64,000 nt of DNA from Methanomethylovorans hollandica DSM 15978. GTDB lineage: Archaea; Halobacteriota; Methanosarcinia; Methanosarcinales; Methanosarcinaceae. The translations under genes were made by a program, and so were the position numbers. Each line of letters starts with the position of its first letter. The first letter of the stretch is position 1. The stretch is taken from NCBI RefSeq assembly GCF_000328665.1, contig NC_019977.1:1240001-1304000 (forward strand). Direction: 5' to 3'. Shown here piece after piece: positions 5,898-27,566 of this stretch. The notes beneath the pieces were generated by a model. The model did no database searches, had not been told where the DNA came from, and worked only from the letters and a program-made list of their open reading frames with translations.

Positions 5898-7828
5898 ATG
5901 GACCTCCTTGGAGAGCCCACAGCTATTCCCAAGATTTTGGTTTCAATAGGTATCGCACCGATGCTTCCTATATCATTATGTTCAAGTTCAACTCTGACAT
6001 TATCCATACTTAATCCGTATCCTGCCATATAATCTGAAATAGAACTACTTACAAGGGCATTTCCCTTCTCAAGAGCTTCTTGATAGTCGTCGAATATGTA
6101 TCTTCCTTTATCCGAGAACAGTAGACACTGTAAACTACCGGGACCTGCCGGACGTATCAGAACCTCTTCTCTATATACTACATTGCCTACAAGAGCACCA
6201 ACAGCATTTCCAACTTCATGATATTTTGGAGCCCGTATATCTGCTTCAATAAGACCCTGCAGATCCTTCAGATATGCAGTTACAGGTGCGCCGACCATAA
6301 CCACAGGAGGTATTATCATGAATTTTGTCAATTCTGAACCATCCAGTATTTTTTCGACATCTTTTTTCTGCATCTTTCCAGTGCAATAGGAAATAAGATG
6401 AAGTGCAAAGTTCCTAGCTACTTCTTTTTTGACGTTTGTACAGAATTCGAAATCTACCATTGAACAATATTTTGAAAGAATCTGAGATCCCAACATTGAA
6501 GCGTCAGATTCCCACTGTTGATAATCACCAAGGACGTGCAGGGCATCGGTAGGAGTGAAACCCACCTGCTTTATGTATCTTTTCTGTATGAGTTTTCTCA
6601 GGATACCTTCGAACATGAGAGGATGTCTATTTGTTTTTGAGGCAATATCTGATATAGAGGAAGGCTCTTCTGTGATGGCATCAAGTATTTCCATTTCTTC
6701 TCCTTCTAGTTCAGAGGCATGCAAGCAGTGTGACTCTACCCCATTGCTCATGAAAAATGTTGTTGGCTGGATGATATCACTCATAATACGTGTCGAAATA
6801 TTCTGTACACTCTGTAACTTACTTATTATTGATGGGAATTCAGTAGCACAAAGGCATAAGGGTATGACCCTATTAGGCCCTATATACATTTTTTCTTGTA
6901 GCCATACATGACTGTCTCCCCCCATAGCGGAGGTATCCATTTTGATGGCTTTGACCATTGTTTCCCAGCCACCCACCACAGCACCGGAACTGCTGATGTC
7001 AGGCATACCCTTGTGAATCATAGAGATATCCGTACTAGTACCCCCCACATCTATAGTTAAACAGTCCTTGAGGCCGGATAGATGTGCTGCACCCAGCAGG
7101 CTTGCAGCAGGTCCTGAAAAAATGGACTCCACAGGTTTTTTCAATGCCTCTTCTATCCTTACCAGTGACCCATCACATTTCATCATCATTAAGATTGAAT
7201 TGATACTTTTGTCTTCCATTACAGATTGTACGGACCTTATAAATTGATCTATAACTGGAATAAGCTGAGCATTAAGAAGTGCAGTCAATGCCCTTTCATA
7301 GGCTCCCAGATTCATGGAAAGCTCATGACCGCAGACAACTGGGAGATTTGTTAAGTTCTGTATGGTCTCTTTGATTCTCAGCTCATGTTCCGGGTTACGG
7401 ACCCCAAAATACGATGATATAGCAAATGAAGAAACCTTATATTGATTCTTTATTACAAATTCCCTTACAATCTCCAACTTGTTCAGAGGTTCTACCTCAT
7501 TTCCATTGGCATCATGTCCACCGTCTATGGAAAGAACATAATCAGTGGGAAGTTTACGAGGTATGTTATAACCAATAAGTATGAGACCTGCAGGATATCC
7601 TTTTCCCTCAAGGGTTGTGTTGGTCGCAAGTGTAGTAGATACTGAAGTGAACTTCACGCACTCAAGATATTCAGCTTTAAGCCCATCAATTGAATTTCTT
7701 ATGCCCTGTATTAGGTCCGGATAAGTAGTAAGCGACTTGTTTGCATCTATTATAGATCCGTCTGCAAGGTCCATGATAACAGTATCTGTATATGTGCCAC
7801 CGGTGTCAATACCAAGTCCTAATTTCAT
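5894..7828 (-). CDS. Hydantoinase/oxoprolinase (HyuA)-like ASKHA ATPase
   Basis: About 644 residues. The N-terminus has the ASKHA phosphate motif GIDTGGTYTD, and a second motif IDVGGTSTD lies near residue 256. The family includes ATP-using hydantoinases and 5-oxoprolinases, and the wider fold includes corrinoid and B12-enzyme reactivases. Residues ~375-430 form a helix-rich insert (EILDAITEEPSSISDIAS...) that looks like a winged helix. I chose ATG at 7828 (7831 is equally possible) because GGTGAT lies just upstream; an upstream ATG at 7876 lacks a binding site. The stop overlaps the chaperonin start (ATGA), implying coupled translation. No hydantoin pathway genes are near, so an amidohydrolase role is unlikely and a reactivase-like role is my inference. 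Confidence 0.8.
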   Translation of the reverse strand: MKLGLGIDTGGTYTDTVIMDLADGSIIDANKSLTTYPDLIQGIRNSIDGLKAEYLECVKFTSVSTTLATNTTLEGKGYPAGLILIGYNIPRKLPTDYVLSIDGGHDANGNEVEPLNKLEIVREFVIKNQYKVSSFAISSYFGVRNPEHELRIKETIQNLTNLPVVCGHELSMNLGAYERALTALLNAQLIPVIDQFIRSVQSVMEDKSINSILMMMKCDGSLVRIEEALKKPVESIFSGPAASLLGAAHLSGLKDCLTIDVGGTSTDISMIHKGMPDISSSGAVVGGWETMVKAIKMDTSAMGGDSHVWLQEKMYIGPNRVIPLCLCATEFPSIISKLQSVQNISTRIMSDIIQPTTFFMSNGVESHCLHASELEGEEMEILDAITEEPSSISDIASKTNRHPLMFEGILRKLIQKRYIKQVGFTPTDALHVLGDYQQWESDASMLGSQILSKYCSMVDFEFCTNVKKEVARNFALHLISYCTGKMQKKDVEKILDGSELTKFMIIPPVVMVGAPVTAYLKDLQGLIEADIRAPKYHEVGNAVGALVGNVVYREEVLIRPAGPGSLQCLLFSDKGRYIFDDYQEALEKGNALVSSSISDYMAGYGLSMDNVRVELEHNDIGSIGAIPIETKILGIAVGSPRRSI

Positions 7829-11177: not shown

Positions 11178-13694
11178 TTAACACAAATTATCCTTACAAA
11201 TGGGGAGTTTTATGTGAAAAGTTGTACCCTTTCCCATCTCACTTTCAATCCATATTTGACCCTGATGTGCAAGAATTATGTTCTTAGATATATAAAGGCC
11301 GGATTCAAGACCTTGGTACCTACGACTCATAGAGTCTTCCATCTGATAAAACTTATGGAAAAGATGAGGTATGAGGTCTTTCTGTATACCGGGACCGGTA
11401 TCGGTTATCCTTATGTGCTGATGTTCTTTTTCTTCACTTAGATCTATACTAATTCTACCACCTACAGGAGTGAACATGACGGCGTTATCAATGAGATTAA
11501 TGAACGTCTCTGTCAATTTATCTCTGTCAGCTCTTACAGTAGATAACTCCTTAGGAATATTTGTATCTACAATGATCATCTTTTCATCTATCAGCAATAT
11601 GAGATTCATCAAAGCTTCTGAAATGAGATTATCTATATGAACCGGGAAGAAAGAATATTTAATCTTCCCAGCTTGTTCCAGGCTCATGTAGAGGAGTGAA
11701 TCGACCAGTCGTTTCAGTCTTTCTGAATTTAGCATAACAGAGTCGATAGATTTTGCTTGCTGATCATCTATGACCCGGATGGTTTCATCATCCATAATAC
11801 TACACTCGGTCTGTTCTGCCTCGAATAAATCCATCCTTTCGGCAACAAATTCAGTTTTCATTCTTCTGATTGATCTAAGTCCCTTGTTTGCCTTTGTGAG
11901 CTCTTCTGAGTATTTTTTCAGGGCATCTTCCATCTGTTTTCTCTGTATCAGACTCCACATCCCCTGCATCAACAATATAAGCTGACGCAGATCGGAGTCG
12001 TTGTATTCCTCTTCTTTGTTACCTACACCTACAACGGCAATTATATGATCTCCATCGAAAATTGGAACATTCATGTGTCTTATAAGTTTCACATGATCTT
12101 CCGGGTATCCTTTCTTCATGGTATTGGGTGCGGGATAATCATTTGTTATTATAGGTTTACGCTGTCTTACTGCTTCACCCCAGAGACCGGTAGTTTTTAT
12201 TGGATAGATGAAACGTTTATCTTTGATCCCGCATTCTTTCATGGCACTTTCGGACCAGGAGTGCATTATGAGCTCTGTTTCATCGGCGTTCATAAATGCA
12301 AGATATCCCAGTGTGCTTTCAGTAAGCTTCACGGCTTCTTCTCTTGCAAAGTCCGTGATTTCTTCTAATGACGAACCTACCATTCCATTGAGTTTTACGA
12401 GAGCATCCAGACGCTTTTCTTCAAGTTGACTCTTTCTCTCTGCCTTTTTGCGCTCAGTGATATCCCTAGCAACAGAGAGTACCATTTTCTTTCCATTATA
12501 CACTATGAAACGTGCATTGATTTCCAAGGGTATAATTGTACCATCTTTAATTATTGCTTCTGTTTCATATATGGCTCGACCCTTAGTTTCTATAATTTTT
12601 AGAAGCTCTGGCATACGCTGTAGGTACTTAGAAGTAACTATGTCTACAGGAGAAGTACTTAATATCTCTTCCTTACTGTAACCTAGTGTATCCACGACAA
12701 CTTGGTTCACATAAATCAGTTTTCCATTAAGTTCACTGATGTATAGTTGATCGTTTATGCTATTGAAAATACCTTTCAACTTTTGCTCTGATTCACAAAG
12801 AGCATCTGTTGCTATTTTGTGATTTATTGCGATTGCAGCAAGATTGGCGTTGGCTTTGAGGATTTCAATTTCTTCTTTTGTGGGTATGTGAGGTTCACGG
12901 AAATAGATTTCAAAAGTTCCAAGGACCTCGTTATTTGAACTCATGATTGGTTCACAGCAGCTAGATTTAATGCCCACCTGAGATGCAAATTCTTTCATAT
13001 CCTTCCAGTAAGGATGTTCCATTATATTCTCTACGATAATCCTTTTTCCAGTATATGCGGCTGTTCCACAGGAACTACTACCTTCTTCAATGGGTAAACT
13101 TTCGATAGCTTTTTTATAAAAACCTGGAAGAAGTGGAGATATAGCACGAATGAGATGTTTTCTTTCTTTGTCCAACAACATGACAAAACCGATTGATTCC
13201 GGTATTGCCCGCTCTGACATCTTTACCAGATGTGTGAGTACTTCATCCAGAGATGCACCCGAAGCTAATGACTCAAGAACGCGGTTGCGACAGTTAATGA
13301 TTATCTCTGAGAGTTTCCTATTACTTATATCTAAAATGATGCCTTCATAATATTGAATATTGCTATTTTGATCCCGTCTAATAATCGTTCTTTCATAAAC
13401 CCATCTGATATCCCCTGATTTTGTAAGGACTCTGTATTCATGACTGAAATTAGAATCCCCTTCTTTAATGCATGTGGCAAATCGAATATGTATTTCCTCG
13501 ATATCATCAGGATGGATAATATCCTCATATTTAATCTTGCCAGAAAGGAAATCCTCTGGAGAATATCCAAATTGTCGTACATTCTCAGAAACGAATTCCA
13601 CTGGCCATCCCTGTTCTGCTCTCCAGACAAAAATTGTCATCGGGCTTTCATTAATTAATCTTAAGGTTTCAGCGCTAATATCAAATTGTGCCAT
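11178..13694 (-). CDS. PAS-GAF-PAS-GAF sensor kinase-like protein with degenerate kinase core
   Basis: 838 residues, no membrane segment. Approximate order: PAS (10-130), GAF (135-295), PAS (300-415), GAF (430-590), dimerisation helices (600-690) and a HATPase domain (715-832). The layout and position beside an Msr regulator recall MsmS and RdmS, heme-binding GAF sensors tied to Mts methyltransferases. C488 (SAMKEC) in the second GAF is a candidate heme-attachment Cys. The H-box is missing: where the paralogue at 49042-51690 has NVSHEFKTPL, this protein has unrelated residues (VAERMDLFEAEQ). The N-box (NLIDNA) and G1 (DTGPG) are kept, but G2 is GLESGLYIS instead of GGTGLGLYIS. It may signal without classical His phosphorylation. 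Confidence 0.85.
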   Translation of the reverse strand: MAQFDISAETLRLINESPMTIFVWRAEQGWPVEFVSENVRQFGYSPEDFLSGKIKYEDIIHPDDIEEIHIRFATCIKEGDSNFSHEYRVLTKSGDIRWVYERTIIRRDQNSNIQYYEGIILDISNRKLSEIIINCRNRVLESLASGASLDEVLTHLVKMSERAIPESIGFVMLLDKERKHLIRAISPLLPGFYKKAIESLPIEEGSSSCGTAAYTGKRIIVENIMEHPYWKDMKEFASQVGIKSSCCEPIMSSNNEVLGTFEIYFREPHIPTKEEIEILKANANLAAIAINHKIATDALCESEQKLKGIFNSINDQLYISELNGKLIYVNQVVVDTLGYSKEEILSTSPVDIVTSKYLQRMPELLKIIETKGRAIYETEAIIKDGTIIPLEINARFIVYNGKKMVLSVARDITERKKAERKSQLEEKRLDALVKLNGMVGSSLEEITDFAREEAVKLTESTLGYLAFMNADETELIMHSWSESAMKECGIKDKRFIYPIKTTGLWGEAVRQRKPIITNDYPAPNTMKKGYPEDHVKLIRHMNVPIFDGDHIIAVVGVGNKEEEYNDSDLRQLILLMQGMWSLIQRKQMEDALKKYSEELTKANKGLRSIRRMKTEFVAERMDLFEAEQTECSIMDDETIRVIDDQQAKSIDSVMLNSERLKRLVDSLLYMSLEQAGKIKYSFFPVHIDNLISEALMNLILLIDEKMIIVDTNIPKELSTVRADRDKLTETFINLIDNAVMFTPVGGRISIDLSEEKEHQHIRITDTGPGIQKDLIPHLFHKFYQMEDSMSRRYQGLESGLYISKNIILAHQGQIWIESEMGKGTTFHIKLPICKDNLC

Positions 13695-13952
13695 GCATCC
13701 TCATATCAGTAGAATATTAAGGGTTCCTTGGAATTAGTATTCAATGTAGCAATTTTTAATACGATTCTCCCTGAACTGTATTATTTCGTCTAACAATATA
13801 GAAACAAGGAATTAATACATTTTGTCCATTAAGTATATTAGATTTATCGATGCGTCCAAATATGTAATTTTGGAAGGCAGCATATCTATTTTGTAGTAAA
13901 ATGTGATAGTCATATATTTTCACTCATTTAAAAACTTCTTTCATACCTTTTT
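13695..13952. other. Intergenic AT-rich stretch
   Basis: This lies upstream of the kinase-like gene and presumably holds its promoter. I see no convincing ORF, RNA gene or strong repeat. Confidence 0.4.
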
Positions 13953-14137
13953 TCAGGATAACATGAAGCATGCAATATCTAATAGTCCTTTGAAAACAAG
14001 ATTCAGTCTTTCATATCTGCTTGCCAGTTTTCTAAATCACATCTTCAAGTATGCAAAGAATCTTGCTATAGTCCCTGTAATGATATGTTTCTTCATCAAA
14101 CCGAGTAGGATATCCTCTTTTCCTTCTTCTATTGTTT
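13953..14137 (-). pseudogene. Transposase C-terminal fossil, copy 1
   Basis: A minus-strand frame reads EEGKEDILLGLMKKHIITGTIARFFAYLKM, then TGA, then FRKLASRYERLNLVFKGLLDIACFMLS and a stop. The RFFA-LK-FRKLA-RYE pattern is typical of the C-terminal end of DDE transposases of IS5-like type. It is broken by an internal stop and lacks the rest of the gene. A second, more decayed copy in the same orientation lies at 18062-18229. Confidence 0.6.
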
Positions 14138-14494: not shown

Positions 14495-14666
14495 AATATG
14501 ATTGTTCTGTACCTTAGTAGAATATTGCGAACAACCAGGAAGCTACATGGCCATAAATTTATATGACATTTTAGATACACTACCTTTTATACCTACGATG
14601 TTCTAAAAAAGGATGATTATTACTGCAATATAGAGGGAATCTCAGAGGACCCTAATAAGTATTGTT

Positions 14667-14912
14667 GGATCTCCACAACATTGAGTGGGTAAATTAATAT
14701 GGTTCTCTTCAACATCGTGTGGGTAATTTTAGCACCAATACATCACCAATCCCTCATAAATAACAATTCACTGTATACTAAGTATCTGCTGAAATTAGGA
14801 ATCCACATCATGTGACATAGTTGTCAAGGCAGCCAAAATATGGTCAGTTAATCAGAGTATTCTTTTATTCCAAGTACCTTACAAATTTACCCACTCAACT
14901 TTGTGGAGATCC
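14667..14912. mobile_element. MITE-like element, about 246 bp
   Basis: The ends are near-perfect 29-bp inverted repeats: GGATCTCCACAACATTGAGT... (14667-14695) and its near-complement ...AACTTTGTGGAGATCC (14884-14912). A degenerate extra copy of the left end follows at 14703-14730. There is no coding capacity inside. A third full copy of the terminal sequence occurs at 20349-20375. It is probably a non-autonomous derivative of an IS that is absent from this window. Confidence 0.6.
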
Positions 14913-17435
14913 ATTTTTAATAAATGCGAGTCTTTTATTAATGAAACGAAAAAGAGGAGAGAGGATATTATAATAAACTATACTCAGCAAGGTTGGAATA
15001 ACTTCTTTTCTGAAATCTTAGACGATTCTAATGAAAAAAAGTATCTTTTTTTAGTTGGAGCTGGAATATCTATAGACTCTGGGCTACCAAATTTCACAGA
15101 TTTTCTCAGAAACTTTTTAGGGCATCTTCTTCCAAATGAATGTAATCCAAATCTCGCCGAAACCACCAATTTAATAATTGACAAACTGCGCCCAGAAGTA
15201 ATCCTTCAAGAAATTTATCAGTTATATGGAAACCGAACGCTTAAATTTTATAGCTGTTTAGAAGGTGGGGAACCAAATTATAATCATTATTTTTTGGCAT
15301 TAGCTCTAAAAAGAGGACATTGTGTATTCACTACAAACATAGATACTTTAATTGAAAAAGCTTGTGAGAGATTAGAAATCGATTATGAATTAATATATTT
15401 AAATGACAATAAGCAGAAAAAAGAATATAAAAAATATTTAGAAAATGATATATTAATAAAAACATATGAACAAATTGCTAAAGAAGAGCCTTTTAACATA
15501 GGCTCAAAAATATTTAAATTACATGGAACAATTCAACCAGGAAATAGTATTCACAAATACAAATCAATTAGATTCATGTTGAATAGAGTTGGATTGGGTT
15601 TAGATGAATCAATGAGGAAAGTTTTTGAAAATGCCCTGAAAGAAAGAGATGTAGTTGTATTAGGTTATAGTGGTAACGATCACTTTAGTGTAGACCCCGT
15701 TTTAAGACAAGTTGAATCTGATCAAAATATTTGCTGGTTTAAATACAAGGATTCAATTGATTTAGTTGAGTCTTCAAGAGATTTTAAATCAATGAGAGGG
15801 GATTTTTTTAAAGAGGTATCTATTGAATTATTTGATATTTGGAGAGATATCTCTCCATTAGATGTAATGATTAGTTGGGAACCAAATTCATATCTTATTA
15901 AAGGTGATAGTAGTAGAAAAATTAAAGAGGCAATATTACAATTAAAAACTAAAAACCCTGAATTTGAGCATTATGTAAATCAGCTCCAAATCAAAAACGA
16001 AGTTATTTGCGGAACAAATCAACAATCTTCTTTAGTAGAATGGACAAAAAAGATTAACGATTTTCAACGTAATGAGTGTGCTTCAATATTATTTCAAAGA
16101 ATAGGGGACGTTGAAAAAGCTGAATATTATCTTCAACAAGCTGAAAAATTAAGTAGTAGTGATATTGATAAAAGGAAAATTAACAACTTAAAAACGAGAT
16201 TGTTTTTGATTACTCGTAGACCAGATGAATTTAATCTTATGAAAAAAGAATTAAAAATTTCATTTGATTCAAATCAATGCTCAAACACGACTTTTGCTGA
16301 AACAATTCATAGATTTAATGAATCAATCGATCAAAAAGATGATGAAAATGACTTTTTTTCTGCTTTTGATCTTTCTCTTGAAATTATTAATTTATTAAGG
16401 GCTAATCGAGAATTTGATACTGCTCTTGAAGAAATAACTTATCTCAAGCAGAAACTTGAGTCAAGACTAAAGCATAAATCAAGTAAAAAGAAAATTTATG
16501 AATATTCTATTTTAAGAGCTAAATTACTGAGAATTCATGGGCTTATATGTGGTTTGGGATTAAAAAGTACAGTCAAAAATAAAGTTGAAGGGATTGTTTA
16601 TTGTGCTGAAGCTTACGAGATTTCCCATAAAATAGGAGATATTACAGCAAAAGCTCAAGCATTAAATGCAAGGGGGTTAATTGTATATCAATTAATTGAG
16701 AGAAGCGATAATATATTAGAGGATGCAGAGAATTCAGTGAATGAATCTTTTATTCTTCACACAAAAACGACTGATAAAAGAAAAAGTTTTCAATCAGCTA
16801 GAAATATTTTACTAATTAATCGTTTACGCTATCTTAATGCTAAAACAAATGCTCGTAACTATTGGATAAAAGAATTAGAAAAATCGCTTAAGATGGTAAG
16901 AGATAATTTAGATTTCATTGAAACGGGTGAAGTTCCTACAGGTGATGAAATTGAATATCTTTATCGTGATGCTGAATTTAGTGCACTTAAAGGTGACAAT
17001 CAAGAGTCAATAACTAAATATACTGCGTTGTTGACCATATTGGAATGTCAAAAAAATGTGCTGCACGCAAAAATAGATGAAGATAAAGTAAATCAAAAGG
17101 ATTTTGAACAACAAATGAACAAAAATATGCACATGATGGCTCGTGTGACCAGAGATTTGCTGAATTTATCCACTAATAGTTGCACCGATTATATTAATAG
17201 TTTGATATTGTTAGTTGAATATCTTTTAAATTCAAATGATATATGTTCTTATTATAAATATGATTCACTACCTCTCCAAAATATAAATGATATGTTAAAT
17301 GATGTATATTGTAAAATACAAAAAAGTGATGTAGACAATTTAAGTAAAATTGAAAAATTAATGGATAAAGGAGCAGAGATCTCAAAATCAATTGATGATT
17401 ACAATCTTCTTATCAAATTTACTTATTATAGATGA
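14901..17435 (+). CDS. SIR2-domain protein with C-terminal helical repeats, probable defence NADase
   Basis: 844 residues. The N-terminal SIR2 fold is clear: GAGIS (53-57), TTNID (144-148), KLHGT (206-210, H208 catalytic) and GYSGND (255-260). From about 400 the protein is all-helical with TPR-like pairs. SIR2 proteins with a repeat domain are typically anti-phage effectors that destroy NAD+ on infection; that role is inferred. The only standard start in the frame is TTG at 14901, inside the inverted repeat of the MITE, without a Shine-Dalgarno. An AGAGGAGAGAGG at 14952-14963 lies further in, followed only by ATT and ATA codons. Codon use is much more AT-rich than in flanking core genes, indicating transfer. 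The gene converges on, and overlaps by 17 bp, a NUDIX gene. Confidence 0.85.
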   Translation: MWRSIFNKCESFINETKKRREDIIINYTQQGWNNFFSEILDDSNEKKYLFLVGAGISIDSGLPNFTDFLRNFLGHLLPNECNPNLAETTNLIIDKLRPEVILQEIYQLYGNRTLKFYSCLEGGEPNYNHYFLALALKRGHCVFTTNIDTLIEKACERLEIDYELIYLNDNKQKKEYKKYLENDILIKTYEQIAKEEPFNIGSKIFKLHGTIQPGNSIHKYKSIRFMLNRVGLGLDESMRKVFENALKERDVVVLGYSGNDHFSVDPVLRQVESDQNICWFKYKDSIDLVESSRDFKSMRGDFFKEVSIELFDIWRDISPLDVMISWEPNSYLIKGDSSRKIKEAILQLKTKNPEFEHYVNQLQIKNEVICGTNQQSSLVEWTKKINDFQRNECASILFQRIGDVEKAEYYLQQAEKLSSSDIDKRKINNLKTRLFLITRRPDEFNLMKKELKISFDSNQCSNTTFAETIHRFNESIDQKDDENDFFSAFDLSLEIINLLRANREFDTALEEITYLKQKLESRLKHKSSKKKIYEYSILRAKLLRIHGLICGLGLKSTVKNKVEGIVYCAEAYEISHKIGDITAKAQALNARGLIVYQLIERSDNILEDAENSVNESFILHTKTTDKRKSFQSARNILLINRLRYLNAKTNARNYWIKELEKSLKMVRDNLDFIETGEVPTGDEIEYLYRDAEFSALKGDNQESITKYTALLTILECQKNVLHAKIDEDKVNQKDFEQQMNKNMHMMARVTRDLLNLSTNSCTDYINSLILLVEYLLNSNDICSYYKYDSLPLQNINDMLNDVYCKIQKSDVDNLSKIEKLMDKGAEISKSIDDYNLLIKFTYYR

Positions 17436-18060
17436 CTTCTTTTGGAGGAATTTTCATAGAAGCTGAAGAATAATATTCATGAATAACCAGAGTTAGTTGA
17501 GAATTATTTAACTTATTTTTAGCTATTAAAGTCCAGTAAATCCAATGTTTAGGAATAGGTGCTGGTTGTAGATTACTATTTCCTTTTGCAGGTAACTTAA
17601 GCCATTCATCTAAGTCAAAGTAATAGAAACCACAATCAATAACTTCAGGAACACCGGGACTAATACCGAATGCATTTGTATTGTCAATAGCACAAAATAA
17701 AACAATTAATTCACCTCTAGTTCCATATCTTTTTGATTCAAAATATGGTCTTTCAAACCAAGCAGCAACCATTAAATTTGAAGGTTTAGACAAAGCAGTT
17801 TCTTCGCTAAGCTCTCTTAAAGCAGCTTGACTTGGTTTCTCCCCATGCTCTACCCCTCCACCTGGGAGATTCCATGGTGTACCACCTTCTAAATCAGTGG
17901 CATAATCTCCAGTTTTAACAAGTAATACTTTTTTTAATTCAGGGTCAAATACAGCTATAAAAGCACCCATACTCCATTTTTTCTCGGCACAATACTTTTG
18001 TGCGAGTGAGTCAATACATTCAACTGTTGTACAAGCATCAAATTTTATTTCTAAATTCAT
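17419..18060 (-). CDS. NUDIX hydrolase
   Basis: 213 residues from ATG at 18060; an upstream start at 18108 would translate transposase fossil sequence. The NUDIX box is complete (GGGVEHGEKPSQAALRELSEETAL). NUDIX enzymes cleave nucleoside diphosphates linked to another moiety, such as NADH, ADP-ribose or oxidised NTPs; the substrate here cannot be read. About 50 N-terminal and 70 C-terminal residues flank the core and are not recognised. It is AT-rich, like the SIR2 gene it converges with. A link to NAD or ADP-ribose metabolism of the SIR2 effector is possible but unproven. Confidence 0.82.
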   Translation of the reverse strand: MNLEIKFDACTTVECIDSLAQKYCAEKKWSMGAFIAVFDPELKKVLLVKTGDYATDLEGGTPWNLPGGGVEHGEKPSQAALRELSEETALSKPSNLMVAAWFERPYFESKRYGTRGELIVLFCAIDNTNAFGISPGVPEVIDCGFYYFDLDEWLKLPAKGNSNLQPAPIPKHWIYWTLIAKNKLNNSQLTLVIHEYYSSASMKIPPKEVIYNK

Positions 18061-18061
18061 A

Positions 18062-18229
18062 TCAATACTTCCCGCACACTTTTTTCCAACACAAAATAAA
18101 GCAGGCAATATCTAACAATCTTTTTAAAAATACATTCAGAAGTTCATACCTGCTTGCCTATTTTCTAAACCTTATCTTTAACCAGCAAAGAATGTTCTAT
18201 AGCTCCTTTATATTGCTATGTTGCTCCAT
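18062..18229 (-). pseudogene. Transposase C-terminal fossil, copy 2
   Basis: The frame from 18229 reads MEQHSNIKEL, TAG, NILCWLKIRFRK, TAG, ASRYELLNVFLKRLLDIACFILCWKKV. It is homologous to the fossil at 13953-14137 and lies in the same orientation. The sequence AAAATATGATAGTCCTGTAC after it (18310-18329) also recurs, slightly changed, after the first copy near 14494-14513. The two relics bracket the SIR2/NUDIX pair. Confidence 0.6.
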
Positions 18230-18334
18230 CAAATAGAGTAGTTCTTCCTTTATTCCTTTTTTATTGTTCTTTCTATTTTTCAGGATAGGTGGTGTATCTA
18301 AAATACTGTAAAATATGATAGTCCTGTACCTTAG

Positions 18335-18432
18335 TGTCAATGGCGGTTTAGTTTTCCCCAATTTCGGCGGTATAAAATTCCCTACTTTTTGATATAAAGT
18401 TAACTCTACCCCTCTACATACTCAATAAAATA
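18335..18432. mobile_element. IS21-type terminal sequence
   Basis: Starting at 18335, TGTCAATGGCGGTTTAG..., then CGGCGGTATAAAATTCCC...ACTTTTTGA has the repeated TGGCGGT...AAA-CCC structure seen at ends of IS21 elements. It directly precedes an IstB fragment, so this is the end of a mostly deleted IS21 copy. The insertion follows the CCTGTACCTTAG sequence of the older transposase relic. Confidence 0.5.
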
Positions 18433-18657
18433 TTACAGTTTACTAGTATGTAATCCCAGCTTTCTTCTCTCCTTTAGCCTGTAACTTTCACCTTTGATGT
18501 TGATCGTAGTACAGTGATGCAATATCCTGTCAAGAACAGCAGATACAATAACACTGTCCTGGAATATCTCACCCCACTGACCATATGACTTATTTGAGGT
18601 AAAGATAGTAGAGGATTTCGGAAAACCCAGATATTTGAAAATTGTCTTATATACCAT
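18433..18657 (-). pseudogene. istB: IstB (IS21 helper ATPase) C-terminal fragment
   Basis: 74 residues reading STIFTSNKSYGQWGEIF, then SAVLDRILHH, then INIKGESYRLKERRKLGL, the well-conserved C-terminal part of IstB, the ATPase that helps IS21 transposition. The Walker A and B regions are missing and no IstA is present, so it is a remnant. Confidence 0.75.
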
Positions 18658-19036: not shown

Positions 19037-19108
19037 AGCCCCCGGAGGGATTTGAACCCTCGACCTGCTGATTACGAATCAGCCGCTATACCGCTAAGCC
19101 ACAGAGGC
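19037..19108 (-). tRNA. tRNA-Thr (anticodon CGT), left copy
   Basis: A 72-nt cloverleaf on the minus strand: acceptor GCCTCTG pairs with CGGGGGC, anticodon stem-loop GCTGA-TTCGTAA-TCAGC gives anticodon CGT, and the T arm is GAGGG-TTCAAAT-CCCTC. It is identical to the copy at 25298-25369. Its 5' flank is element sequence with a hairpin and no evident TATA box, so this copy may be poorly expressed. Confidence 0.93.
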
Positions 19109-19109
19109 A

Positions 19110-19137
19110 CGATTTTGAGAAGTTGCTCTCAAAATCG
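19110..19137. repeat. Perfect 11-bp inverted repeat beside the left tRNA
   Basis: CGATTTTGAGA (19110-19120) and TCTCAAAATCG (19127-19137) flank a 6-nt loop, immediately next to the tRNA direct repeat and upstream of the integrase gene. It is a candidate integrase arm or core site, or a hairpin limiting read-through. Confidence 0.55.
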
Positions 19138-19171
19138 GAGGTCCAAAGCCTGCTTTAGGTGTGATTGGACA

Positions 19172-20230
19172 ATGGAAGCGGGAATATATAAAATAGATGT
19201 CGATAGGCGTATAGGCACATTAATTACTTCTGAACTATCAGAGCGAAATAAATCTCTGATTATTGAATTTGCTGATAGTTGTTTTATTGCTGGACTTGGA
19301 GACCACAGGGTTCTTAAGTACATTTCTACTCTAAAAAGCATAGCTACTGATATTCAGGTTGATTTAGACAGAGTTGGAGTACCTGAACTTCGAAGATATA
19401 TCTCAACGCTCGAGAGATCAGATAAAAGTGAGTGGACAAAACATGACTACAAAGTTACTATACGTAAATTCTACAAGTGGTTTTATAATGAAGACAATCC
19501 CGAGTTGACAAAGTGGATTAGGACGACTATAAAAAAGAAAAAACAAAAAGCACCGGAAGACATCCTTATAGAAAGTGAAATACTGTCGCTAATCGATAAT
19601 GCAACCAATAAAAGGGATAAAGCATTGATTGCTCTTCTATGGGACATTGGAGCACGTATCGGAGAAGTAGGAACTCTACGAATAAAGGATTTAGTGTTCG
19701 ATGATATTGGGCTAATCGTTCATTTAAACGGCAAAACTGGCCCAAGAAGAGTAAGAGCTGTGTGGAGCATAGAATATCTTAATGAATGGCTCGAAGAACA
19801 TCCTGAAAGAGATAATCCAAATGTACCTTTGTGGTTCAAATTTAATTCTGAACCTCTAGAAATTCTCAAATATGATGCAATAAGAAGGCGCTTGGTTAAA
19901 ATCTCTGAAAAGACGGGCATTAAGAAAAAGATACATCCACATCTTTTCAGGCACTCTAGATGCACACATATGGCTAACTATCTTACAGAAGCTCAGATGA
20001 ATTTATACTTCGGATGGATTCAAGGTTCTGATATGCCATCTGTTTATGTTCATCTATCTGGAAGAGATATTGATGATGCTGTTCTGAAGGCAAACGGAAT
20101 CATCCAAAATGAATGTGCTCGAAACAATAATCTACAATCTAGTTCAGAAGAGAATGTTATTGAATCGAAAATTTATAGCATGGTAAAAAGCAATCTAAGA
20201 AAACTTTTGGTTAATGCTAATTGGGATTAG
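19172..20230 (+). CDS. Tyrosine-family site-specific integrase
   Basis: 352 residues from ATG at 19172; the longer frame from 18962 crosses the tRNA and is not credible. An N-terminal SAM-like core-binding domain (about 15-110) is followed by the catalytic domain with R162 (GARIGE), K188 (LNGKTG), H257xxR260 (HPHLFRHSR) and nucleophile Y292 (SVYVHLSGRD), so the active site is complete. It starts 63 bp from the end of the tRNA-Thr copy, the usual place for an element integrase. It should catalyse integration and excision between the two tRNA repeats. A related fossil C-terminus lies at 20696-20764. Confidence 0.9.
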   Translation: MEAGIYKIDVDRRIGTLITSELSERNKSLIIEFADSCFIAGLGDHRVLKYISTLKSIATDIQVDLDRVGVPELRRYISTLERSDKSEWTKHDYKVTIRKFYKWFYNEDNPELTKWIRTTIKKKKQKAPEDILIESEILSLIDNATNKRDKALIALLWDIGARIGEVGTLRIKDLVFDDIGLIVHLNGKTGPRRVRAVWSIEYLNEWLEEHPERDNPNVPLWFKFNSEPLEILKYDAIRRRLVKISEKTGIKKKIHPHLFRHSRCTHMANYLTEAQMNLYFGWIQGSDMPSVYVHLSGRDIDDAVLKANGIIQNECARNNNLQSSSEENVIESKIYSMVKSNLRKLLVNANWD

Positions 20231-20348
20231 ATAGATACTATTATTTATTTTTTTATTTATCCCATTCATCAATACATTTTCACTCATTCAGCTACCATAC
20301 CATCTATACTGAAAATTGCCTTTTCTGCGAATTCTTTATTTTTGACTA

Positions 20349-20375
20349 TTTACCCACTCAATGTTGTGGAGATCC
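20349..20375 (+). repeat. Solo copy of the MITE terminal repeat
   Basis: TTTACCCACTCAATGTTGTG...GATCC matches the right end of the MITE at 14884-14912 and is the inverted complement of its left end at 14667-14695. No partner end is found nearby, so it is a solo end or the trace of a deleted insertion. Confidence 0.55.
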
Positions 20376-20695
20376 AAAATTATTAATTATTAGTCCCCCC
20401 GATTCCAACTTTAAAGAAAACTTTTTAAGTGGTGGCTCTGATATTGATTCTTAATTTATAACTTTTATAACTCTACTAAACCATACTTTACCATCAAAAA
20501 TTAAAAATCTTGCAACCTGGAGCCTTAAAATCAATCCTCGAGGATAATATAAGGGATAATCAACATGTATAATTTATGATATACAATCTAAAGTTATATT
20601 CATACACAACTGTCTAAGAATATTTAGTAAGCTACGCTGGTAATAGTGTCTATAGATAACGATTTTTAATAAAACAGATAGCATCATACACCATA

Positions 20696-20764
20696 TCTAA
20701 AGTTTACTTAAATGGGAGAGATATTGATAATGCTATATTAAGAGCGAATGGTATAATATTATAG
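20696..20764 (+). pseudogene. Integrase C-terminal fossil
   Basis: The frame reads SKVYLNGRDIDNAILRANGIIL and stops, matching the end of the intact integrase (SVYVHLSGRDIDDAVLKANGII), including the nucleophile Tyr region. Nothing else of the gene remains. It points to an earlier related element at the same site. Confidence 0.6.
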
Positions 20765-20778
20765 CTAAAAATATATCC

Positions 20779-21084
20779 ATAAATTAAATTCGCTTCGCTC
20801 ATTTAATTTATATATACAATCAAATATTGAAGTTGCTATATAAACAAGTTAGTATCTAAAGTATAGTTGCTCATTGATATCGATTACTCCTAAAATCAAT
20901 AGCAATGTACGCTGTAATTAATTACCTGATAACTAATACTTTAATCTATCAATCTTTCAAGCAATTACTCAATAAATAAACAATAATGCAGGTAACAATT
21001 AAATGAGAGTGACTGTCTAATGATTATTGTTAAAAAATATACTGATAAATTAAATTCGCTTCGCTCATTTAATTTATATATACA
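20779..21084. repeat. Paired 40-bp direct repeats with hairpin symmetry
   Basis: Identical 40-bp units lie at 20779-20818 and 21045-21084. Each contains 10-bp inverted arms ATAAATTAAA and TTTAATTTAT around a 13-nt GC-richer loop. Similarity continues, less perfectly, for about 80 bp after each unit (ATATTGAAGTT, GTATCTAAA). The zone has no ORF. Confidence 0.65.
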
Positions 21085-21438
21085 TATAAATATTGAAGTT
21101 AGTATATAAATAAGCTCGTATCTAAAATCTAGTTACTCACTGATATTGATAATTTTTAAAATAAATATCAACAAACAATGTACAATTGTTCAGTAATTAC
21201 ATGCAGCGCAATGCAATTGATTACCAGATCGTACAAGCGATAAATCAGTACTTCAGTTACTAAACTATAAATCGTACAAAGTGTACATATTTATTAGTTT
21301 GAACCTAACCGTTATTATGCCGCAAGCCTGTAATTATGTAAAGTCTCATATATTCTCATAAGTTCCCATAATCAATAAGCAAAAAATTGTATATCTATGT
21401 ATATATAAAAATACTGTGATGATTAACGCCTATATTTT

Positions 21439-21474
21439 ACGACAATTGCCGACAATTTTGAAGACAATTGTCGT
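21439..21474. repeat. Inverted repeat with three GACAATT iterons
   Basis: ACGACAATTG (21439-21448) and CAATTGTCGT (21465-21474) are perfect inverted arms, with a further GACAATT between them. Three GACAATT boxes at short intervals resemble iterons that bind a replication or partition protein. Confidence 0.5.
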
Positions 21475-21705
21475 GAAATTCTTTAATTTTTGCCAAATCC
21501 GATCAACACATATATATAGAAACAAAGACAATAGGAGAGTGGACGGGCTGATAAGAGAATAAGAGGCTAAGGGAGCTACGAGCTAAGATAAATCTTAGCT
21601 CTGCGCTGAATGATATAACATGATATGAAATAACATAACATATTAGCTGATAAAAGCAGTGCATATGAGTTTCATACATGTATTAAGCTCTTAATCTCTA
21701 ATGAT

Positions 21706-21824
21706 GCTCAATTCATTATGTGATGAACAGATCCATCACGTAATGAATTGAGCAAGTAATGATATTATAAACATAATCATGAGTGATCTGTTATATAATG
21801 GATTAATAGATCTATTATATAATG
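21706..21824. repeat. 20-bp inverted repeat followed by a 16-bp direct repeat
   Basis: GCTCAATTCATTATGTGATG (21706-21725) pairs with 21734-21753 with one mismatch. It is followed by GATCTGTTATATAATG (21785-21800) and GATCTATTATATAATG (21809-21824). With the repeats at 20.8-21.5 kb this makes an origin-like zone. No genes are seen from 20765 to 22203. Confidence 0.55.
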
Positions 21825-22203
21825 ATATGAATAAGTTATTATTAAAGGCTAATAAGCCAGTAACATTTAGCGTAACTGTTATAAAATTTTCTAACTGTAT
21901 AGAGTGGCGTATTTAAGATAGACATATGAGCTTTGAGATGGGAGAATTATTAACCATACGCTATTGTGATCTTCAATCAATAGAACTTACAGTTCTTTAA
22001 CCTTAATTTGACAGTTTACAAAAATTCAGGTGATATTTAGGAGCATTTTGCCTTTTTCCATCATAAATAAAAGAATAATAGAAACTAAAATAAAAAATTG
22101 CTTTACTTTGAAATGTACATTTAAAGGGGGAAGGTGGAAATGTACTAAGATAGAGAAAATAAGTTCTTTTAATCCTATAAATGAGTTCTATTTTGAACGG
22201 TCC

Positions 22204-24945
22204 CTATTCAGTATATCCTAATTCTTTGGCTCTATCAAAGGCTTGAATTGCTTCTTCTTCTCTTCCCAGACTACGAAGTGCGAAACCCTTGGTATGCCAT
22301 ATAACACTTGACTTTGGGTTTATTTCTATGACTACATCAAATGCCTGTATTGCTTCTTCGTATCTTCCTGCATCGGTAAGTGCAAAACCCATTCGAACCC
22401 AGGCGATTTCAGACATTGAATCTATTTCTATGGCTTTATCAAATGCACACATTGCTTCTTCATACTTTCCCAAACTACTGAGTACATAACCCGTGTTAGC
22501 CCATGAAATATCAGATTTTGGGTTTACTTCTATAGCTTTATCAAATGCCTGTATTGCTTCTTCGTATCTTCCCAGACTACTAAGTGCCAAACCCTTGCTA
22601 TCCCATGCACTATCAGACCTTGGGTTTATTTCTATGACTTTATCATATGCCTGTATTGCTTCTTCATATCTTCCCAAGATACTAAGTGCCAAACCCTTGC
22701 CACTCCATATACTAGCAGACCTTGGGTTTATTTCTATGGCTTTATCATATGCCTGTATTGCTTCTTCATATCTTCCCAAGCTACTAAGTGCGAAACCTTT
22801 GCTACTCCATGGACCTTCAAACTTTGGATCTATTTCTATGGCTTTATCATATGCCTGTATTGCCTCTTCGTCTCGTCCCAAGGTACTAAGTGCCAAACCC
22901 TTGTTATCCCATGCATGTGGATACTTTGAATCTATTTCTATGACTTTATCAAATGCCTGTATTGCTTCTTCGTCTCGTCCCAAGCTACTAAGTGCCAAAC
23001 CCTTGCTATTCCATATACTAGCAGACCTTGGGTTTATTTCTATGGCTTTATCATATTCCTGTATTGCTTCTTCGTCTCGTCCCAAGCTACGAAGTGCCCA
23101 ACCCTTGCTATCCCATGCACTATCAGACCTTGGGTTTATTTCTATGGCTTTATCATATGCCTGTATTGCTTCTTCGTATCTTCCTGCATCGGTAAGTGCA
23201 AAACCCTTGCTATTCCATGCACTAGCAGACTTTTGATCTATTTTTATGGCTTTATTATTTATTAAATAATTCAATTCATCTCTATCCACTAGTTTTACAC
23301 CATTTGCATCTGCTAACTCAATTGCAGATTTAGTAAAGTAACTGTTTGTTACAACACTGCACGAGGAACATCCATAATATTTCTTAGCTGCAACTACTTG
23401 TTGAACTGCGCTGTTTGAAACATTAGAAGTGTATTTTTTTACTTGAACAGCAGTCTTTTCTCCATACTTACTGATTATGAGGTCTGCTCCTTGGTCATTG
23501 GATAAAGGAGTTTGCTCGACAGAATAACCCATTTTCTCATAAAGTTGCCCAACGAAAGCTTCAAACTCGTATCCACCCATCCCATTTACATCAAGAATTG
23601 ATAATTGTTTCTCACTTGAGAGCAGATTGAGTTCAAATATCTTTGTCTTGATATGTTCTTCAAAATTTTTGTAATCTAAACTTGTCAAATTGCGTTCCAT
23701 GAAATATCGATGTAGAAAAGGTAATTGATAATCTATATCATTCCCAAAAAGATTAATTGTTTGTTTTATATAACCCATTTCATCTAAAGGTGCTGTTTTC
23801 ATACATTCAGTGAACAGACCATAAAAATATTCAAAACTTGCTTCTGAGACAAGTTCTTTCAAGATGGCTTTATTATGTATTTTTATTCCTTTTGTTATGA
23901 GAAGTTTATTGAGGTTTTCCAAATCCTCTTCACTATAACTGGTTCCATATTTTTTTGCAAAATCATGAATCAATTTGAAATCATAAGCGGGCTCAAATCC
24001 ATAAATTGATTTGAAAGAACATTTATTTGAAATGATGGATTTAAAATAAGATGGTATTTCATTTTCAACCTCTATATAACTAATGTTTTTCTTAAACATC
24101 ATGCCTTTAAATATTTGCAAATTTTCTGCATAATTGGATCCATAAACTGACATGAACTTGCCTAAGTAATGTTTGAAAGGTGTGGAATTATTACTCAGCA
24201 TATTCTCAAACATTATATCTATAAACATAGAGGTATGTCTTTTTTCAATTGAATCGATTAGTTTTTGTGTATCTGCTTCATTGAAGATTAGTTTTGCTTG
24301 TAAACGCAATAGTCTTTTGAAATCATCCAAATATTCGAGATAGTTGCTTCCATAAATATGGAAAAACACTTTTAGATAATCTATAGGTGTATCTGGATTT
24401 TCATTCAGTACCTGTTTGAACTTTTCTTTTAAACGGTCATTTTCTTCAATTAACAAAATTATTTCTCTTAGTGAGGAATCATTAATGAATTGTTCATAAG
24501 TTATTACTTTCCTTAAATAAATCAGTCTTTTAAATTCTAATGTAGACGTTATATTTTTATAATATTCGTTGCCATAAATCGAGATGAATGCTCTAATATA
24601 ATCTTCAAGCGCAATTGGATTTTTATCTAATACATTTTTGAATTTTTCTTCCAACAGAGATTTTTCATCCATCATAGCAGCATATTTTTTAGATTTTACC
24701 GTCTTTGCTAGTGATTTATAAAAACCTCCTATAATGAATGTTAAGATTATACCGTATATGCACATTATCCATAAAATCCGGTAGTAGAAGTCAATATAGT
24801 CAAAGTAATCAATGATAGAAATACTGATGTAGAAATAACACAAAGAAAAAAATATGATATATAGCAAATGAATCGGTTTTAATCTTACTTCTTTGCCTGA
24901 TAGTTTGTCAACTTCTTTAAAACCATACTTTTTTTCCTCTGGCAT
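22204..24945 (-). CDS. Membrane-anchored Mrr-type nuclease with 10 TPR repeats
   Basis: 913 residues. Two membrane helices (about 25-46 and 54-74) are followed by a helical region (97-440) with about five copies of a module marked by (I/V)YGxxY at 123, 197 and 267, with weaker forms at 332 and 399. An Mrr-like PD-(D/E)xK nuclease domain follows (450-565) with E460, D488 and Q501-x-K503 (GYEFE, GADLI, VQVKK). Ten nearly identical 34-residue TPR units (570-913) complete it. Mrr domains cut foreign or modified DNA; TPRs bind protein partners. As the only cargo of the tRNA-bounded element, it is probably a defence or inter-element conflict protein. The DNA of the TPR part repeats with a 102-bp period. 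Confidence 0.85.
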   Translation of the reverse strand: MPEEKKYGFKEVDKLSGKEVRLKPIHLLYIIFFSLCYFYISISIIDYFDYIDFYYRILWIMCIYGIILTFIIGGFYKSLAKTVKSKKYAAMMDEKSLLEEKFKNVLDKNPIALEDYIRAFISIYGNEYYKNITSTLEFKRLIYLRKVITYEQFINDSSLREIILLIEENDRLKEKFKQVLNENPDTPIDYLKVFFHIYGSNYLEYLDDFKRLLRLQAKLIFNEADTQKLIDSIEKRHTSMFIDIMFENMLSNNSTPFKHYLGKFMSVYGSNYAENLQIFKGMMFKKNISYIEVENEIPSYFKSIISNKCSFKSIYGFEPAYDFKLIHDFAKKYGTSYSEEDLENLNKLLITKGIKIHNKAILKELVSEASFEYFYGLFTECMKTAPLDEMGYIKQTINLFGNDIDYQLPFLHRYFMERNLTSLDYKNFEEHIKTKIFELNLLSSEKQLSILDVNGMGGYEFEAFVGQLYEKMGYSVEQTPLSNDQGADLIISKYGEKTAVQVKKYTSNVSNSAVQQVVAAKKYYGCSSCSVVTNSYFTKSAIELADANGVKLVDRDELNYLINNKAIKIDQKSASAWNSKGFALTDAGRYEEAIQAYDKAIEINPRSDSAWDSKGWALRSLGRDEEAIQEYDKAIEINPRSASIWNSKGLALSSLGRDEEAIQAFDKVIEIDSKYPHAWDNKGLALSTLGRDEEAIQAYDKAIEIDPKFEGPWSSKGFALSSLGRYEEAIQAYDKAIEINPRSASIWSGKGLALSILGRYEEAIQAYDKVIEINPRSDSAWDSKGLALSSLGRYEEAIQAFDKAIEVNPKSDISWANTGYVLSSLGKYEEAMCAFDKAIEIDSMSEIAWVRMGFALTDAGRYEEAIQAFDVVIEINPKSSVIWHTKGFALRSLGREEEAIQAFDRAKELGYTE

Positions 24946-25030
24946 ACAATACAGATGATAATGTTCTAAACTATATGTGCTTTTCTATTATTTCTAAGAG
25001 TGAGAGAGACAGTATATAATGCGAGTTAAT

Positions 25031-25150
25031 TCAAAAACAAAATTCCCCCAGAATCCTTCGATATTCATCCTTAGCCTGCTGTACTTTGTTCAAATAATGC
25101 GCGCTTCCAACAGTTGCAGGTGCGCGACCTTGAAGAATAATCAATCATGA
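25031..25150 (-). pseudogene. Second integrase-type fossil beside the right tRNA
   Basis: The minus-strand frame reads LIILQGRAPATVGSAHYLNKVQQAKDEYRRILGEFCF and stops. This fits the C-terminal end of archaeal tyrosine integrases (QGR...HYL with the nucleophile Tyr). It differs from the intact integrase, so an element of another type once used this site. No upstream part remains. The flanks 24946-25030 and 25151-25297 hold nothing else I can identify. Confidence 0.45.
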
Positions 25151-25297
25151 TATCTTAAATTGGTTATAGACAGTTGCACTAATATATCCTTAAATGGTTG
25201 ACAATGAAAGAAGAAATAGTCTTAAGGCGAAAAAGCTATAAGCTCTAACAACAAATAATAAAATAGAAAAGCAGGCTTTGTACATAAAAAAACCGAT

Positions 25298-25369
25298 AGC
25301 CCCCGGAGGGATTTGAACCCTCGACCTGCTGATTACGAATCAGCCGCTATACCGCTAAGCCACAGAGGC
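25298..25369 (-). tRNA. tRNA-Thr (anticodon CGT), right copy
   Basis: Identical in sequence and fold to the copy at 19037-19108. On this copy the 5' flank (25371 onward) has an AT-rich TATA-like segment about 25-30 bp away, and the 3' flank has a T7 run on the coding strand (complement of 25285-25292). This is therefore likely to be the normally expressed gene. Confidence 0.93.
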
Positions 25370-25482
25370 AATTGTGTCTCTAAAGATTACATAAGAATTT
25401 AATAATTTCGCTCAACCTGTAGTGACCGTTATTATTAATGAACCAAACATCAATTATTATTACAGAGTATGTTTAAGAATAG

Positions 25483-26558: not shown

Positions 26559-27566
26559 TCATCGCCCTCGGCCTTGAATTCTTACTTCGATGCAGACGTT
26601 GAATTGATGTGGAGAATAAGAGCGCACGATACGCGTGGCAATGGGCTCAATACCAAAACCGGCCCTTTGTGCGGCGGCTTCTATGTGAGCAAGGGAAGAG
26701 GAGTACAGGTCATCCTCAGGTGTGATGTCGTAGTAATGGATCACAGTTCCGGGCTTTGCAACAACCATGGCCGCATCCAGGAATTCCTGAGCAGTATGTG
26801 GCAGGTTCATGATGACATGGTCTGCTATCCCTGCATAGTTCCGGACCTCTGCCTTTGCATCCCCTTCGATAGCCTCCACATTGCTGACCGCATTAAGAGC
26901 GATGTTGTGCCTGAGGAACTTAACAGCTTCCGGATTTTTGTCAATGGCTACAACACGGCATGAAGGCCGGTTCTTCGCGATAAGGATGCTGAAAGGCCCT
27001 ACACCTGCGAACATGTCTGTGATCACCTCCCCTTCCCGTACCTGTTCCAGTATCCTGGAGCGTTCCGTGGCAAGTCGGGGAGTAAAATACGCTTTCTCCA
27101 TGTCAACAGCATACCTGCAACCATATTCTTTGTGAACCGTATGTGTCGTGTTTTCGCCCTTGATGAATATGAACCTGCGGGTGCGGAATTCTCCCTCCAC
27201 GGGGGATAATGCCGCCAGCACAGTTTTGATATGCGGGTTTGCCTGCAGCAATGCATCTGCTGCCCTCTCAAGGTCCGTTTCCCCGGATTCCAGCAGGGCT
27301 ATGCTACCTATTACTTCATATCTGGGTGTGTAGCCCAGCATATGTTCCAGAGTAGCTGGCCTTTCATGCATCACGAACTCACGTTCAGTGACCAGTGCAT
27401 CTTCCAGTGACAAATCAGTGGCGTTCGCGGCAGGGATAAGAGGAATATATATGCAGGAATCATCTGAAGCAATGCGTACTGAAGTATCCAGTAATCCTTT
27501 TTCCATAAGGAGTTTCCGGACATGTTCACCTTTTTTCTTGTCAACCCGAATACATTGCCTGTTCAT
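26559..27566 (-). CDS. trm5: tRNA (guanine37-N1)-methyltransferase Trm5
   Basis: 335 residues from ATG at 27566. This start overlaps the LysE stop (ATGA) and follows GGGTGC; a longer frame from 27620 would run back into lysE. The N-terminal D1 and middle domains are followed by a class I SAM domain with DMFAGVGPFSI and the NLPHTA catalytic loop. It makes m1G37 beside the anticodon, preventing frameshifting. Length and motifs fit archaeal Trm5. It is co-transcribed with the LysE-type exporter. Confidence 0.88.
   Translation of the reverse strand: MNRQCIRVDKKKGEHVRKLLMEKGLLDTSVRIASDDSCIYIPLIPAANATDLSLEDALVTEREFVMHERPATLEHMLGYTPRYEVIGSIALLESGETDLERAADALLQANPHIKTVLAALSPVEGEFRTRRFIFIKGENTTHTVHKEYGCRYAVDMEKAYFTPRLATERSRILEQVREGEVITDMFAGVGPFSILIAKNRPSCRVVAIDKNPEAVKFLRHNIALNAVSNVEAIEGDAKAEVRNYAGIADHVIMNLPHTAQEFLDAAMVVAKPGTVIHYYDITPEDDLYSSSLAHIEAAAQRAGFGIEPIATRIVRSYSPHQFNVCIEVRIQGRGR

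Follow-up and report, generated by a model that had tools for sequence, protein, structure and literature searches.

A 6.3-kb integrative element between two complete tRNA-Thr(CGT) genes in Methanomethylovorans hollandica and what looks like an integrase lineage with whole tRNA genes in its attachment sites

The window analysed here, a stretch of 64,000 nucleotides from Methanomethylovorans hollandica DSM 15978, contains a 6.3-kb element flanked by two complete tRNA-Thr(CGT) genes. At its left end the element encodes an intact tyrosine recombinase, and it has a single large gene besides. The genome (G000; 2.71 Mb in two contigs) was compared with relatives from the family that includes Methanosarcina, Methanolobus and Methanohalophilus. 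Both tRNA genes lie on the reverse strand, the left copy at the integrase end (19037..19108) and the right copy at 25298..25369, and each is recognised by ARAGORN and Rfam (67.6 bits). That two identical, complete genes bound the element, as the original prediction held, is borne out by identity over 73 bases (19037-19109 and 25298-25370). These two are the only exact copies of the gene in the genome, and a 22-base probe allowing up to 3 mismatches finds just these sites in the window, with 0 expected from shuffles. Partial tRNA pieces that could mark a third element end were sought in the window and none was found.

The recombinase gene (19172..20230, forward strand) encodes an apparently intact integrase of 352 aa that matches PF00589 at 59 bits (cut-off 27.1), in agreement with the earlier claim. 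Residues R162, K188, H257, R260, W282 and Y292 are invariant in an 8-sequence alignment, and we take these columns to be the catalytic residues. A scan of viral contigs for the integrase returned no relative. A perfect hairpin with an 11-bp stem (19110..19137; fold z -5.8; 0 of 200 shuffles as stable) abuts the 5′ end of the left tRNA copy. Beyond it lies the left member (GTCCAAAGCCTGCTTT; 19141..19156, forward strand) of a pair of arm-like 16-bp inverted end repeats, and the right member (GTACAAAGCCTGCTTT; 25268..25283, reverse strand) is identical to it at 15/16 positions, a match that 0 of 500 shuffles equalled. These matched repeats tie both ends of the element to one recombinase.

The repeat-rich DNA that had been predicted between the tRNA genes amounts to AT-rich sequence (28% GC between the integrase and the large gene) and one 166-bp direct repeat spanning 20741..21171 (copies 20741-20905 and 21006-21171, 82% identical). 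Fossils of two integrase types had also been claimed; one was recovered, comprising 19 codons of an integrase C terminus (20702..20758, forward strand; 74% identity to residues 293-311, E 3e-4), and the second type was not found. A 42-bp inverted match (90%) links 20348-20389 within the element to 14653-14694 outside it, where a shorter copy also lies (14885-14913); these possibly represent the ends of a small insertion sequence. To the left of the element, 14901-18657 holds a SIR2_2 protein that matches short-Argonaute-associated SIR2 profiles, a NUDIX gene and an IstB (IS21) fragment, and a 215-bp direct repeat (13924-14136 and 18057-18268, 74% identical) lies on either side of the SIR2/NUDIX stretch.

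The sole large gene (22204..24945, reverse strand) encodes the expected nuclease-TPR protein, 913 aa with a hydrophobic N terminus, a predicted Mrr-type restriction endonuclease domain (residues 455-561) and a TPR array. It matches PF04471 (Mrr_cat) at 104 bits, as well as TPR families, and contains YEFE, DQGAD and QVKK, whose E, D and QxK are presumably the Mrr_cat motif residues. PADLOC gives partial matches only: to the Mrr end of ZorD, PDC-S02, type IV enzymes and TPR proteins. Zorya ZorD combines an SNF2 helicase with an Mrr-like nuclease, and the cargo matches only positions 920-1068 of the 1071 in that profile, with no helicase family among the best 25 of 34 family matches. When residues 1-548 are compared with the 111 family genomes, the matches listed outside G000 are all confined to 372-548, the region of the nuclease domain, so no other member of the family was found to have this combination. 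The protein may serve in host defence, a role made easier to propose by the restriction-modification genes in the related element of G010.

Judged by conservation, the right tRNA is the host's. This gene and its 5′ flank are 93-96% identical in three congeners (G002, G003 and G005), and the genes to its right align in relatives, beginning with a trm5-like gene (26559..27566, reverse strand) and followed by two that we take, from the look of their proteins, to be LysE-like and TFB-like. The conserved flank (25370..25421, reverse strand) bears the putative promoter, with CGAAATTATTAAAT at -41. As predicted, a promoter is apparent only at the right copy: the motif CGAAATNNTTAAAT lies upstream of it and, 41-55 bases upstream, in 11 of the 11 native CGT genes tested, and it is absent upstream of the left copy, which is probably silent. 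Three second copies were tested for the motif; it is present in G010 and absent in G000 and G099. The locus has direct att repeats at both ends and one tRNA left under the putative host promoter, as tRNA-targeting integrative elements do. In the native gene, the 5′ part and promoter would be host sequence and the 3′ part presumably derives from the element after integration.

The original prediction had raised the possibility that the two tRNAs are ancestral tandem paralogues. The complete gene is single in all three congeners in which it is fully assembled (G002, G003 and G005), which argues against an ancestral pair. The other two congeners are G001, where no close match exists, and G004, whose contig breaks inside the gene (L077:8385-8409). 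Such breaks are typical of assemblies at repeats, and G004 may also have two copies. Among the matches listed from a search of 60 genomes, G000 included, only G000, G010 and G033 have two copies with at least 86% identity to the probe, and G028 has a second match at 85%. In ten chosen genomes, with G099, G033 and G010 included as known or suspected to have two CGT copies, the CGT gene is single in 7 and the TGT gene in 9. G033 also contains two complete tRNA-Thr(CGT) genes with promoters and without an integrase between them (L066:5660-5731 and 11733-11804); a single PAS-like gene (1798 aa) lies between them, and of the two copies the one closer to trm5 looks decayed. Neither an excised circle nor a sister strain in which the exact site is empty was found. 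Downstream of the tRNA, the congeners have nothing that matches the chromosome to the left of 19037, which accounts for the lack of an exact empty site.

Integrase matches at E <=1e-40 occur in 69 of the 111 family genomes, and we read the context of 23 of these loci. At four, the integrase diverges from a complete tRNA copy (layout B), as in G000 (CGT), G099 (CGT, 25 kb), G010 (CGT, 14.5 kb) and G033 (TGT, 9.3 kb), the integrases of G010 and G033 being broken; a fifth locus of this layout is decayed (G009, GGT, 6.5 kb). At six loci the integrase shares its strand with a promoter-bearing tRNA and lies 45-52 bases downstream of it (layout A), which is the pNOB8-type layout. At seven it occupies the far end and is accompanied only by a piece of ~20 bp reaching from the T loop to the tRNA 3′ end (layout C); three of these have the native gene and the repeat in the same locus (18, 22 and 23 bp in L111, L116 and L117), and the other four were read by eye. 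The remaining five comprise two at contig edges, one in G000 itself without a tRNA, and two broken integrases (G094 and G076) near which a second tRNA copy was sought and none found. A tree of 25 integrases, with these last two left out, joins A and B in one group with support 82/54 and places C outside, which weakly suggests an A+B clade. In a separate collection of 67 named loci, from which the nearest genomes may be missing, 21 have layout A by our own criterion and 0 have layout B.

Inverted end repeats were tested in seven A and B elements. They are significant in G000, G099, G009, G122 and G118b (0-1 of 500 shuffles) and, with a longer flank, in G010 (3/500); those of G033 are not (422/500). 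Two type-C elements also have them (2/500 and 0/500).

Beyond the original prediction, a whole-tRNA copy recurs in this integrase clade, as read from the gene contexts: full-length second copies are found for tRNA-Thr CGT (three genomes), TGT and, decayed, GGT. The duplicated stretch is confined to the tRNA and stops at its 5′ end in G000 and G099, and it extends into upstream host-like sequence for ~73 bp in G010 and ~50 bp in G033. The G033 second copy is changed at positions 1-2, and its native TGT gene was assigned by synteny with four other genomes. The G009 copy is a full-length, decayed GGT gene (GGT-like z 6.4, 0/500 shuffles). Methanosarcina elements of layout A carry a full-length copy at the far end, at 7.6 kb in G122 and at 17.5 kb, decayed, in G118b. 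In G109 such a copy lies at 8.5 kb, with an integrase remnant adjoining the native gene, and further copies in G124 and G115 are on contigs other than that of the native gene. Since whole copies recur in the clade and sister integrases have the ~20-bp T-loop-to-3′-end piece, the presence of the whole tRNA gene within attP appears to be a lineage trait.

Several of these loci show neighbouring structures. In G115, two complete TGT copies lie 2.3 kb apart with a truncated integrase start between them (L136:5285-5358 and 7621-7694), an arrangement that resembles a tandem array of elements. In G010, an integrase of a second type begins 100 bases past the second tRNA copy (L065:17267-18442), so two elements seem to share this site; the repeated use of the site that had been predicted is seen there, and the fossils of the window show it less well. 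In G118, tRNA-Thr(GGT) is preceded by a promoter region of 81 bp that is duplicated in tandem (L109:467-547 and 560-640, 98% identical).

Five second copies in Methanosarcina (G122, G124, G115, G109 and G105) have similar, conserved inserts of ~34 nt in place of the T-loop TTC. A sequence model built from them, R1, finds 12 copies, five by construction and seven new, all of them in Methanosarcina (9 of the 111 family genomes, 9 of the 185 order genomes); R1 has no match in G000, whose copy lacks the insert. The insert loci (L106:10435-10539, L147:1501-1605 and ten others) include some with all other tRNA stems intact, and Rfam reads two of four tested as a tRNA whose T arm contains a 37-nt stretch. 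Among the pair counts, those for paired cells (1/500 shuffles) and covariation (2/500) stand out; pairs changed on both sides show no excess (70/500). We rejected the insert as an intron by reasoning that its removal leaves no TTC. A complete integrase accompanies an insert copy only in G122. Integrase remnants lie near the insert copies of G109, G124 and G115:C89, and none was found in the stretches examined near G111, G129, G113, G114, G105 and G115:C125 (L156 was outside this check). Most insert copies have no intact integrase nearby and so count as relics or solo copies. The insert is common to TGT and GGT copies, which argues that the copy is element-borne.

The best reading remains, as originally proposed, an integrated element with a duplicated whole tRNA gene. 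Specifically, we propose with a probability of about 0.78 that the 6.3-kb element entered a single tRNA-Thr(CGT) gene at its 3′ part and that its attP carried a complete tRNA-Thr gene. The tyrosine recombinase would act on the tRNA from the T loop to the end, recombining this part with its counterpart in attP, where the complete gene would lie between an integrase-side arm and the core. The probable core in the left copy (19037..19056, reverse strand) is the only part that sister integrases duplicate, and we infer a crossover within these last ~20 bp. Because attP would hold the whole gene, integration would yield two complete genes, of which the host keeps the right, promoter-bearing one as its working copy. 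On an excised circle, attP would read arm-hairpin-tRNA-arm, and the element may still be mobile. Site-specific recombination alone does not explain why the element's copy agrees in its body with the isoacceptor targeted; capture from the host, or gene conversion while integrated, could be guessed.

A crossover near the tRNA 5′ end, as in pTN3-type elements, would reverse the roles of the copies: the body that now stands behind the host promoter would come from the element, and the displaced host body would be the left copy. The duplication that stops at the tRNA 5′ end in G000 and G099 fits such an exchange, as does the match of each second copy to the isoacceptor of its neighbouring native gene in the pairs examined. 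Divergence of paired copies does not favour a 3′ crossover either (14/220 mismatches in the 3′ 20 bases and 42/587 in the 5′ part, p 0.76, 11 pairs), so the crossover is not locatable by that route. However, sister integrases with like end repeats duplicate only the T loop to the 3′ end, the T-loop insert that TGT and GGT copies have in common implies an element origin of the distal body, and in G010 and G033 identity continues for 50-73 bp beyond the tRNA on its upstream side. We consider a 5′ crossover unlikely.

It is more improbable still that an ordinary short 3′ att was used at integration and that gene conversion or a local duplication later produced the full left copy. In these polyploid archaea gene conversion occurs readily, a partial att is the sister state, and the two-copy CGT locus of G033 has no integrase between its copies. 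Such events would nevertheless have to have happened repeatedly, at five or more loci and for three isoacceptors, and the hairpin and end repeat that directly abut the full left copy are unrelated to the tRNA, with similar sequence in G099 by eye. Two ancestral tandem paralogues around an unrelated integrase, for which the G033 CGT pair offers a model of tandem duplication without an integrase, are very improbable in view of the single copies in congeners, the matched end repeats and the recurrence of integrase-adjacent copies at other isoacceptors.

Under our preferred reading, the 3′ entry of an element whose attP holds the whole gene, a lineage carrying that gene changes how integration can spare the host. 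A whole-gene att may permit tandem stacking of elements, which G010 and G115 seem to show, and it gives rise to additional tRNA genes and pseudo-tRNA genes that would pass as real in annotation pipelines. For the role of the full tRNA in attP, the sister clades, whose copies are partial, offer a natural comparison. As a tentative extension, perhaps a single Methanosarcinaceae integrase clade made the whole tRNA-Thr gene part of its docking site, which in Methanosarcina could have become a tRNA-like sequence whose structured ~34-nt insert replaces the T-loop TTC (12 copies, 9 genomes). The insert might keep the 3′ core usable while barring recombination or processing as an ordinary tRNA, or might yield a tRNA-like RNA that serves the element.

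Most tRNA-targeting elements carry only the tail of the tRNA gene. Whole tRNA genes do occur in the att sites of bacterial SLP1 and phage HP1; as in the window, att identity spans the tRNA gene, and these systems are bacterial and unrelated. In the suicidal SSV type attP lies within the integrase gene, which integration splits; the integrase gene of the window (19172-20230) differs in being a single open frame with a full, unsplit domain. As far as the available portions of five papers go, described att types involve the 3′ end, T loop, anticodon or 5′ half, crenarchaeal att sites measure 29-69 bp, and one model places a tRNA intron in attP (PMC8371274, PMC3293823, PMC6563490, PMC9897764, PMC3218068). 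A lineage with whole tRNA genes in attP is not described in those portions, which is weak evidence of absence; the available text of PMC8371274 in particular describes no such lineage, and it notes att sites that reach the D loop and beyond the gene. With the archaeal tRNA-targeting elements in that text, ours shares an intact tyrosine recombinase, a tRNA target, direct repeats at the ends and a retained host promoter. It differs from the classical-integrase elements described there in the whole tRNA gene in attP and in an integrase that adjoins the displaced copy and diverges from it (PMC8371274).

The available part of PMC3293823 offers two closer comparisons. Integrated plasmids of the pNOB8 type likewise have an integrase gene that att does not split, but theirs adjoins the reconstituted tRNA on the same strand, whereas that of the window adjoins the other, promoterless copy on the opposite strand; the Methanosarcina relatives fit the pNOB8 layout. 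The intron-bearing attP modelled for Caldiarchaeum tRNA-Thr resembles our elements in carrying tRNA-Thr sequence with an insert (PMC3293823). In contrast to that model, the Methanosarcina inserts are located in the T loop, where they take the place of TTC, and their splicing would not restore a normal T loop; the copy in the window has no insert. The pTN3-type 5′ att, with which the reconstituted tRNA is expressed from the side of the element, shares with the window the involvement of more of the 5′ tRNA part than is usual. It differs in that the native gene of the window appears to keep its host promoter motif and in that the sister elements point to the T loop and 3′ end.
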